Origin: an uncultured Nitrospira sp.
Lineage (GTDB): Bacteria; Nitrospirota; Nitrospiria; Nitrospirales; Nitrospiraceae
DNA: 64,000 nucleotides
Direction: 5' to 3'
NCBI GenBank assembly: GCA_902500785.1
Contig: CABVRW010000012.1
Location: 1 to 64,000, forward strand
Below the pieces are notes generated by a model. That model made no database searches and had not been told where the DNA came from. It saw only the letters and a program-made list of their open reading frames with translations. How positions within the stretch are numbered: position 1 is the first letter of the stretch; every line of letters starts with the position of its first letter. Shown here in pieces: positions 31,891 through 34,115 of the stretch. A program made the translations under genes and the position numbers.

Positions 31891-32166
31891 TCAGGCCGGT
31901 CTGGCTCCTTGCGTCGGCGCCAGGCGCTGGATGTGGTGAATGTCCACGAGTTGTTCGGTTCGGTCGATCGAATAAAAAATCCGCCAGTCACCCACGGCGT
32001 ATTTGTGGATGCCGGGCAGGTCGGTGGCGACCGGTTCGTGTCGCAGATTGTCCACATTGGAAGCCAGCCATTTTGTCTTGTCGAATAGGCGTTGCGCCAT
32101 GGCGGGGTCCGCGGTGCGCAGGTCGGTGATCACATCGGGCCGGAAAGCTAAACGGAACCAGGGCAT
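31891..32166 (-). CDS. RelE/ParE-family toxin
   Basis: A 91-residue basic protein of the RelE/ParE fold (FRLAFRPDVITDLRTADPAM, AVGDWRIFYSIDRTEQLVDI, HHIQRLAPT). The signature GDWRIFYSID strand and the preceding LPGIHKY segment are typical of ribosome-dependent mRNA interferases, and the C-terminal HHIQ could supply catalytic His. The ATG at 32166 follows the antitoxin stop at 1 bp; the open frame extends further upstream only as a continuation inside the antitoxin gene. The order antitoxin-toxin, close packing and lengths fit a type II module. Confidence 0.85.
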   Translation of the reverse strand: MPWFRLAFRPDVITDLRTADPAMAQRLFDKTKWLASNVDNLRHEPVATDLPGIHKYAVGDWRIFYSIDRTEQLVDIHHIQRLAPTQGARPA

Positions 32167-32167
32167 G

Positions 32168-32383
32168 TCACCACCGCAGGCCGAGCTTGTCGGCCACGTC
32201 GTCACCCGTGAGACGTTCCGTCGAAGCCAGTGATTGCTTGAGGCGATCGCGAACCGATTGGCCGAGTGGCGCGCCCAGATCCGGGTCGCCGAGCAATGTG
32301 CGCAGCCGATCGTCAACCATCCCTTGGACCAAGTCCTTGAGTTCGGCCAACGTCAGCTTGGATAGGGTTGTTGGCTCCGTCAT
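32168..32383 (-). CDS. Antitoxin of the RelE-type pair
   Basis: A 71-residue acidic protein (MTEPTTLSKLTLAELKDLVQ, DDRLRTLLGDPDLG, ERLTGDDVADKLGLRW). The ATG at 32383 was preferred over the 32587 frame start, which would add a Pro/Arg-rich tail unrelated to the sequence. Charged helices and the overall length are as in type II antitoxins; I do not recognise a named DNA-binding fold. It directly precedes the toxin gene, with its stop 1 bp from the toxin ATG. Assignment as antitoxin is mainly from context. Confidence 0.7.
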   Translation of the reverse strand: MTEPTTLSKLTLAELKDLVQGMVDDRLRTLLGDPDLGAPLGQSVRDRLKQSLASTERLTGDDVADKLGLRW

Positions 32384-32423: not shown

Positions 32424-33041
32424 TCAGGAATTGCAAGACGGAGCTGAGGATGAAGGCGCAGAATGTTGATTGTTGCCGGCTGCTTCACAGGAACAATCCA
32501 GACAACCATGGACGGAACAGGTACCGCAGGCCTGTTCGATTCGGCGGCGAAGCGCCGCCCTGGCTCGATGCACGCGAACTGCCGCATTTTCGGCGGTGAT
32601 GCCTGACTGCTGAGCGAGATCTTTCAGTTTACCTTCCTCCAGATCCACGATCCGCAGGGCCTCGCGATATTCGGGCTTGAGGGTCTCCAGCAGGCTAGAC
32701 ACGCATCGGCAGATCTCCTGACGCAGCTCCGCTTCGGGCTCATGAACATCCGGAAATTCCCTTCTCCAGGTTTCCATCGCTCGTGCGGCGGTGGTCCGCT
32801 GACGGTAGTGATCGATCACGGCATTGCGCAGAACCCGGTAGAACCAGGCCACGACCTTTTCATCCCGGACGTCGCCGCCGCGCTCCAATCCACGTGCAAA
32901 GGCCGCTTGCAGGATATCTTCGGCGACCGCTCGAGATTCCACGCGCCGTTCCAAGAATGCCAAGAACTCATGGTGTCCGTTCACCAGCTGCGCAAGGGCT
33001 TCGGGGGAGAGTGCTGTCGATGGGTTCGATTCGGAGTTCAT
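32424..33041 (-). CDS. ECF-type sigma factor with cysteine-rich C-terminus
   Basis: A 205-residue sigma-70-family factor. Region 2 reads FLERRVESRAVAEDILQAAF and AWFYRVLRNAVIDHYRQR; region 4 reads LETLKPEYREALRIVDLEEG and GITAENAAVRVHRARAALRR. It ends with a cysteine-rich tail, CGTCSVHGCLDCSC, which is five Cys and one His within 14 residues, and then a Ser/Pro-rich stretch. No anti-sigma factor is adjacent, so the tail may sense metal or thiol state directly. The divergent metallothionein-like gene, 106 bp away, is an obvious regulon candidate. Function of the tail is inference. Confidence 0.88.
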   Translation of the reverse strand: MNSESNPSTALSPEALAQLVNGHHEFLAFLERRVESRAVAEDILQAAFARGLERGGDVRDEKVVAWFYRVLRNAVIDHYRQRTTAARAMETWRREFPDVHEPEAELRQEICRCVSSLLETLKPEYREALRIVDLEEGKLKDLAQQSGITAENAAVRVHRARAALRRRIEQACGTCSVHGCLDCSCEAAGNNQHSAPSSSAPSCNS

Positions 33042-33071
33042 AGAGGCAGCTTACCACGATGTTTTTCGGAC

Positions 33072-33098
33072 TGTAAGGTTTCCGAGTGTCCTGCGTCA
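33072..33098 (+). promoter_or_regulatory. Candidate ECF-type promoter before the metallothionein-like gene
   Basis: TGTAAGG at 33072-33078 and CGTCA at 33094-33098, 15 nt apart, have the look of an ECF sigma -35/-10 pair about 50 bp before the ATG at 33148. The site is in the gap shared with the divergent sigma-factor gene. There is only one copy to look at, so this is a weak guess. Confidence 0.25.
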
Positions 33099-33147
33099 GC
33101 CTCTGTGACGACGCAATTACGCGTTGGCATCTCAAAGGAGACCCATC

Positions 33148-33309
33148 ATGGCCGAAGTGAACACGTCCACCACGCAGCAGGCTGCGAAGGCGAGCTGCTG
33201 CGGAACCTGCGATTGCGCATCCTGTTCCTGCGGGTGCCAGGCACAGGCCTGTCGCTGCGAGCAAACCAACTGCCAGTGTGGGTGCCGCACACGAAGTTCC
33301 GGTCGGTAG
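33148..33309 (+). CDS. Metallothionein-like cysteine-rich peptide
   Basis: A 53-residue peptide with 12 cysteines in the last 40 residues: ASCCGTCDCASCSCGC, then ACRCEQTNCQCGC. The dense CxC and CC pairs match metallothionein-type metal chelators (Zn, Cu, Cd), with no other domain; the N-terminus (MAEVNTSTTQQAAKA) is soluble and not a signal peptide, so it should be cytoplasmic. AAGGAG at 33135-33140 supports the ATG at 33148 over an in-frame ATG at 33124. A strong hairpin follows the stop, so the gene is probably monocistronic. It faces the ECF sigma gene with the cysteine-rich tail. Confidence 0.85.
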   Translation: MAEVNTSTTQQAAKASCCGTCDCASCSCGCQAQACRCEQTNCQCGCRTRSSGR

Positions 33310-33476: not shown

Positions 33477-34115
33477 ATGCAGCGCTTGGAATTAACAGTT
33501 CCTCCAGTGGCTCTCATGCTGCTCGCGGGTGGATTCATGTGGATCATCACCTGGGCAACGCCGGCCCTTGAGTTCACCTTTCCCGCTGGACTCATCTGCG
33601 CAGCGGGCGCGGTGCTTATCGGCATCACCATGGCAGGGATGGGTGTGTTTTCATTCAGCCGTGCCAAGACCACCGTCAATCCCATGAAGCCGGATTCCTC
33701 ATCCGCGCTGGTCGTGAGCGGCGTCTATCGACTGACACGCAATCCGATGTATCTGGGCATCTTGCTGTTGCTGATCGGCTGGGGCATATTCCTCTCGAAC
33801 GCGCTGGCTTTCCCAGCCCGGACTATTCATGAATACCTGCTCCGGCGTCCGATCCTCTCGCCCGGCGAGGCTGTTCTCGTTCAGCCTTCTCGACGGACTG
33901 CGAGTACGCCTGCGTCGGCCTCACGTGCGAGCAGTCTCGGCGGGCTTCCGTCTCGAACGCCTCGCGACGGCAGTCATGAATAATCCGGGCTAGTACTTCC
34001 CGGCTTCGTCATGTATATGAATCGTTTCCAAATCGAGCCAGAGGAAAGGGCGCTCACCCGTCTGTTCGGCGAGGCATTCGTGATCTATCGTAGCCAGGTC
34101 CGGAGATGGATATAA
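33477..34115 (+). pseudogene. Isoprenylcysteine carboxyl-methyltransferase-type protein, interrupted by a MITE
   Basis: The first part encodes a membrane methyltransferase of the phospholipid/isoprenylcysteine methyltransferase family: three hydrophobic segments, FSFSRAKTTVNPMKPDSSSA and GVYRLTRNPMYLGILLLLIG, the SAM-binding signature. The end of the family, RFQIEPEERALTRLFGEAFV and YRSQVRRWI, is found in the same reading frame at 34018-34112, beyond a 177-bp insertion (33815-33991). A TAA within the element (33981-33983) cuts the product to 168 residues and removes the conserved C-terminus. It is therefore a recently disrupted gene, and whether the truncated form works is unknown. Confidence 0.8.
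33815..33991. mobile_element. 177-bp MITE-like element with 18-bp terminal inverted repeats
   Basis: Terminal inverted repeats AGCCCGGACTATTCATGA (33815-33832) and TCATGAATAATCCGGGCT (33974-33991) differ at one base. There is no transposase. Removal rejoins the methyltransferase reading frame. From memory the ends resemble those of IS1380-family elements, so it would be a non-autonomous derivative; this needs an ISfinder search. I could not define a clean target-site duplication. Confidence 0.75.

Follow-up and report, generated by a model that had tools for sequence, protein, structure and literature searches.

Direct sensing of the signal has been described for few ECF sigma factors. At the locus presented here, a sigma factor gene with a cysteine-rich tail faces a gene for a small cysteine-rich peptide, and the question is whether the tail is a sensor through which the sigma factor directly controls a chelating peptide. 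The window, i.e. the whole 64 kb stretch of DNA analysed, comes from a Nitrospira-type genome (3.9 Mb, 129 contigs), and the nearest named orthologues belong to Nitrospira, with 83-92% identity.

Layout of the locus

The sigma factor gene (32424..33041, minus strand) encodes 205 residues, and the peptide gene (33148..33309, plus strand) encodes 53, with 12 cysteines, as the initial annotation had it, and with no histidine. The two start codons are 106 bp apart in divergent orientation, and sensor, promoter and effector are all contained in less than 900 bp. On the downstream side of the sigma gene, a 71-residue ORF without family is followed by a ParE-type toxin gene (Pfam); this ParE/RelE-type toxin and the small ORF upstream of it (31891-32383, minus strand) are likely a toxin-antitoxin pair. 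Beyond the peptide gene lies an ICMT/PEMT-type methyltransferase ORF (Pfam; 33477-33983, plus strand), whose C-terminal part is seemingly truncated or out of frame. Pfam analysis of the window ORFs revealed no anti-sigma gene among the neighbours of the sigma gene, in agreement with the first description of the locus, and no copper gene adjoins it within the window.

The sigma factor and its cysteine-rich tail

CorE of Myxococcus xanthus is a copper-dependent ECF sigma factor, formerly classified in ECF44 (PMC3107203). In its group, four tail cysteines are invariant and spaced C-x2-C-x7-C-x-C (positions 181, 184, 192 and 194 of CorE; PMC3107203), and a CxC motif between sigma2 and sigma4 is described as the second element of the metal site (PMC8999054).

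The window ORF matches Sigma70_r2 (PF04542, 34.4 bits) and Sigma70_r4_2 (PF08281, 33.3 bits), both above the Pfam cut-off, which bears out its reading as an ECF sigma factor. It has no domains other than sigma2 and sigma4, the ECF architecture of the CorE-like group. The tail of five cysteines and one histidine in 14 residues, from which the proposal had started, was found as CGTCSVHGCLDCSC (residues 172-185; 32487..32528, minus strand). It reads C-x2-C-x4-C-x2-C-x-C, and C172, C175, C183 and C185 reproduce the C-x2-C-x7-C-x-C spacing. The CxC motif is present as C111-R-C113 at the sigma2/sigma4 junction (32703..32711, minus strand). A linked anti-sigma gene, missing here, is also missing in the CorE-like group. 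Judged on these sequence features, the sigma factor is a member of the CorE-like (former ECF44) group. Membership in SigZ (TIGR02959) was rejected, with a score of 99.8 bits for a curated cut-off of 168.65.

We aligned 15 sigma factors with a cysteine-rich domain (CRD), namely the window sigma factor, orthologues, distant Nitrospirota relatives and plasmid-borne members from Alphaproteobacteria. C111, C113, C172, C175, C183 and C185 were invariant (15/15). One plasmid member, PHZ_RS20500 of P. zucineum (on NC_011143.1), is very probably PHZ_p0174 of the CRD sigma factor list published in 2011 (PMC3107203). Among 19 orthologous loci, the five tail cysteines were kept at 18, the 19th being frameshifted ahead of the tail, and residues beyond the tail were variable. 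The tail cysteines, whose conservation was decisive for the initial proposal, are thus conserved. Frameshifted sigma orthologues, with the shift near residues 151-156 and ahead of the Cys tail, were seen at L054 (genome G018) and L055 (genome G401), through either an assembly error or genuine decay.

Two tail rules have been published: Cys-x4-Cys-x2-Cys-x-Cys, starting at Cys184 of CorE, for the copper type, and Cys-Cys-x3-Cys-x2-Cys-x-Cys for the Cd/Zn type, CorE2 (PMC9023288). Cys189 is the main CorE residue for copper activation, and only 11 of the 21 listed sigma factors have an equivalent (PMC3107203). The window tail follows the copper pattern, C175-x4-C180-x2-C183-x-C185, the Cys189 equivalent included. 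The residue following C175 is Ser or Ala in 18/18 intact orthologues of the 19 loci, and none of these 18 has the Cys-Cys of CorE2 at the start of its tail. Because the spacing fits the CorE rule and not the CorE2 rule (PMC9023288), we regard the sigma factor as being of the copper type. The AlphaFold model of the sigma factor, made with 18 window and locus sequences, was poor, with a mean pLDDT of 60.7 and values below 50 in the tail; the CxC motif and the tail are not close to each other in it.

The divergent peptide

All 12 cysteines of the peptide are invariant at 19/19 loci, while 10 of their 12 codons vary synonymously, and dN was lower than dS in 18/18 comparisons against the window sequence. 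The peptide is small and cysteine-rich, with CxC and CC clusters and no aromatic residues, and in these respects it answers the description of a metallothionein. No match was found in Pfam or NCBIfam at E 0.1, among PDB chains at E 10 or in a search of plasmids, and no metallothionein family profile of Pfam or NCBIfam recognises it. Because there is no family or PDB match, we infer metal binding from the cysteine content. A second peptide match in the genome of the window (G000:C65, E 0.008, within a 300-residue frame) and one in genome G294 (E 8e-4, within a 167-residue frame) were set aside, both looking like chance matches of cysteines.

Pairing of the two genes in the genus Nitrospira

A sigma orthologue was detected in 20 of the 29 genomes of the genus (81-100% identity), two of the 20 being broken or split. 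The peptide is present in 19 of these 20 genomes; in the last one (G018), its first 20 residues are followed by the end of the contig. None of the nine genus genomes without the sigma factor has it. The co-occurrence of tail and metallothionein-like neighbour, put forward at the outset as a check, is therefore complete in the genus (20/20 vs 0/9), counts that are not independent events because the genomes are related. A peptide profile run over 395 Nitrospirota genomes found 18, of which 17 belong to the genus and all have the sigma factor, and one is a weak, probably chance match. We conclude that the pairing of sigma factor and peptide is real and conserved.

The promoter and leader of the peptide gene

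The possible ECF-type promoter proposed between the two genes, TGTAAGG to CGTCA, is present at 33072 and 33094, and the site at 33072 is the sole TGTAA-N17-CGTC of the 64 kb window. The predicted promoter of the peptide gene, ACTGTAAGGTTT-N12-CGTCAGCC (33070..33101, plus strand), is nearly invariant. It scores 19-20/20 in all 19 intergenic regions, where its spacer is constant in length (12 nt) and variable in sequence, and it ends 45-46 nt upstream of the peptide start codon. A promoter motif shared across genomes, the other point on which the initial proposal hung, was thus recovered. Like the conservation of the tail and peptide cysteines, that of the promoter goes beyond chance.

A scan of the 29 genus genomes for TGTAAGGTTT-N12-CGTCAG, allowing up to one mismatch, gave 20 sites. 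All of them lie at the peptide, in the 20 genomes that have the sigma factor (20/20), and there are none elsewhere. At up to two mismatches, 43 sites were found vs 41 for the backwards control. A wider regulon was largely dropped, as this total is close to that of the control and only the 20 sites with no or one mismatch, all at the peptide, stand out. Of the 23 sites with two mismatches, three are the promoter of a DUF4396 gene (see below).

Between the promoter and the Shine-Dalgarno sequence (AAAGGAG, 33134..33140, plus strand), the 5′ leader of the peptide transcript contains a conserved stem-loop of 6+3 bp with a 6-nt loop (33105..33130, plus strand). Its covariation support is modest: 96% of the cells are standard pairs, vs 14-52% when the stem is slid (14 sequences), and both bases vary in only two pairs. 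In the Acidobacteriota leaders, a stem of different sequence folds at this position. The element may be a DNA inverted repeat instead of a stem-loop, and it may stabilise the mRNA or act as an operator.

Changed gene order in Acidobacteriota

The most informative natural comparison came from Acidobacteriota MAGs, in which sigma factors 64-77% identical to that of the window were found. At two loci (L050 and L056), the divergent order is retained, together with the promoter-peptide unit. At two others (L052 and L053), the two genes share a strand, with the peptide gene downstream of the sigma gene and the promoter immediately before the peptide. At L051 (contig L205), the order is sigma factor, promoter, DJ-1/ICMT fusion, multicopper oxidase, DUF4386-like gene, promoter and peptide, the latter 4.8 kb downstream of the sigma gene and past the multicopper oxidase. 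The promoter travels with the peptide gene, not merely with the intergenic region. The gene for the DJ-1/PfpI-ICMT fusion, first of the three between sigma factor and peptide (L205:7403-11872), has a promoter copy of its own.

In a tree of 49 sequences, the 19 sigma factors of the metallothionein-linked (MT) group, from Nitrospira and Acidobacteriota, form a single branch (support 100/100), which suggests a transfer between phyla. Owing to their disrupted sigma frames, L054 and L055 were not included in this tree. The sigma factor of L047 (JADZCI010000367.1, labelled Bryobacterales) nests within Nitrospira; this contig is probably mis-binned, and for these reasons it was not counted as Acidobacteriota.

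Distant relatives and DUF4396 loci

We then considered 20 hand-picked distant CRD-sigma loci of Nitrospirota (38-45% identity), with 9-10 kb fetched around each. The CxC motif and the tail C-x2-C-x2-HGC-x2-C-x-C were present in 20/20, and TGTAA-N17-CGTC, the spacing of the window promoter, in 19/20. Eighteen of these sites are on the sense strand, 55-260 bp past the tail, and one is on the opposite strand. As a control, 11 other spacings (from 12 to 23) gave 8 sites altogether, and the backwards pattern gave one. Of the 20 stretches, 13 contain a P-type ATPase motif and 5 a DUF4396 motif. The 13 ATPases carry CPCAMGLAVP or CPCALG[LI]ATP motifs, which we take to be of the copper type. No metal-gene motif was found in the stretches fetched for L158 and L160, and that of L160 has no TGTAA-N17-CGTC site. 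The promoter TGTAA-N17-CGTC, being class-wide, is usable for target prediction in the CorE-like group.

A broken second CRD sigma factor was seen beside a DUF4396 gene at L178 and L222 (G055, N. defluvii), L176 (G094), L180 (G127) and L193 (G169). In G055, G094 and G127, the TGTAA-N17-CGTC site ahead of DUF4396 has stayed intact, and this orphaned promoter may have been taken over by another sigma factor, possibly the metallothionein-linked one. Two further genomes (L188 in G399, L189 in G336) have kept TGTAA-N17-CGTC before DUF4396, and no CRD sigma factor was found in either of them; another sigma factor can therefore probably read such sites.

Proposed mechanism and alternatives

Conservation of the tail, a shared promoter and co-occurrence support the proposal that a sigma factor with a sensing tail directly controls the chelating peptide. 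Given the architecture, its conservation, the pairing and a promoter of cognate type that keeps to the peptide gene even where gene order differs, we consider it likely that the locus is a self-contained unit against copper stress, in which a copper-type sigma factor activated by metal in its own tail would transcribe a chelating peptide. The sigma factor would be made without an anti-sigma partner and would be inactive until metal is bound. This metal, which as in CorE is most likely Cu(II), would be held jointly by the Cys-rich tail and the CxC of the sigma2/sigma4 junction, and would activate the sigma factor rather than inhibit it. Once activated, it would recruit RNA polymerase to ACTGTAAGGTTT-N12-CGTCAGCC, a promoter predicted to depend on it, and transcribe the divergent gene for the 12-Cys metallothionein-like peptide, which would in turn chelate and buffer copper.

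The same circuit could respond to another signal, the tail sensing Zn/Cd, Hg, Ag or thiol oxidation and the peptide serving as a Zn/Cd or general thiol buffer. We hold this possible rather than probable. CorE2, whose tail is closely similar, does respond to Cd and Zn (PMC8999054, PMC9023288), the Cys clusters of the peptide could hold any soft metal, and the MT-linked sigma genes examined, except L051, have no copper gene seen nearby. However, the Cys-Cys pair that specifies CorE2 is missing from 18/18 intact orthologues, a multicopper oxidase stands between sigma factor and peptide in L205, and sister sigma factors are found near P-type ATPases taken to be of the copper type.

A purely structural zinc site in the tail is improbable, as is a distant anti-sigma factor that escaped notice; the sigma factor would then be constitutive or conventionally regulated. 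The tail pattern CG.C..HGC..C.C, which resembles zinc-binding knuckles, would suit the first of these possibilities. Concerning the second, a distant anti-sigma factor could not be entirely ruled out in the CorE study (PMC3107203). Against this explanation, deletion of the CorE tail abolishes induction and overproduced CorE is inactive without copper (PMC3107203), and no anti-sigma gene adjoins the window sigma factor. Least probable of all is that the peptide is not under the sigma factor's control, the two being chance neighbours or under a shared third regulator acting, for instance, at the conserved stem or inverted repeat of the leader: the promoter is of ECF type, with the same grammar at 19/20 distant CRD-sigma loci, it follows the peptide gene through gene-order changes, and co-occurrence among the related genomes of the genus is 20/20 vs 0/9.

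The self-contained copper unit, which we prefer, suggests how nitrite-oxidising Nitrospira, important in wastewater nitrification, may handle copper, and the set of sigma factor, promoter and peptide is a compact candidate part for a copper biosensor. More tentatively, the sigma factor might be essentially dedicated to one gene: copper in the tail would induce the metallothionein, which would strip copper from the tail, giving a self-limiting pulse without anti-sigma factor, repressor or export pump. As part of the same doubtful scenario, it may in addition have acquired the orphaned promoter of DUF4396 in the Nitrospira lineages in which an older CRD sigma factor has decayed (G055, G094, G127).

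Comparison with known systems

For ECF sigma factors with no anti-sigma factor, metal sensing through a Cys tail is already established as a mechanism by CorE and CorE2 (PMC3107203, PMC8999054). With CorE, as known here from its published pattern, the window sigma factor shares the C-terminal Cys-rich domain, the C-x2-C-x7-C-x-C spacing, the Cys189 equivalent, the CxC and the lack of an adjacent anti-sigma gene. The targets of CorE are a multicopper oxidase, copB and an HMA protein (PMC3107203), whereas the neighbour and apparent target of the window sigma factor is a metallothionein-like peptide. CorE2 of M. xanthus, which responds to Cd and Zn, has the same domain plan (PMC8999054, PMC9023288), but its Cd/Zn specificity is set by the Cys-Cys at the start of its tail (Cys173-Cys174), where the window group has Cys-Ser or Cys-Ala (PMC9023288). 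In OrbS of Burkholderia cenocepacia, an iron sensor, a C-terminal Cys cluster likewise serves as an on-board metal sensor without anti-sigma factor; its Cys spacing is different, however, and the metal inhibits OrbS rather than activating it (PMC9023288).

On the side of the peptide, metallothioneins of the MymT and BmtA types are also small Cys-rich chelators under a metal regulator. Their regulators, RicR for MymT and BxmR for BmtA, are repressors of the CsoR/ArsR types (PMC10141476), whereas an activating sigma factor apparently governs the window peptide, which no Pfam or NCBIfam match links to them.

NIDE1902 of Candidatus Nitrospira defluvii is among the 21 CRD sigma factors listed in 2011 (PMC3107203, Figure 9). 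The N. defluvii genome has 55 region-4 matches, and among the 30 loci examined, including all those over the Pfam cut-off, the tail pattern was found only in the orthologue of the window gene. Because it is the sole tail-bearing sigma factor at these loci, NIDE1902 is very probably that orthologue. The available text of the 2011 paper reports the CRD of NIDE1902 and mentions no metallothionein neighbour (PMC3107203), and within the literature searched NIDE1902 appears in no other paper. The sensor itself is already known, because the N. defluvii orthologue is very probably on that list. In the same literature, whose coverage mostly leaves out subscription journals, no paper was found on a CorE-like sigma factor with a metallothionein target; as far as searched, both the promoter rule and a metallothionein as output are new. 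With the mechanism established for CorE and CorE2 and the orthologue listed, the locus adds a new output to a sensor class that is already known, and the CorE-like group gains a new kind of output, a metallothionein-like peptide.
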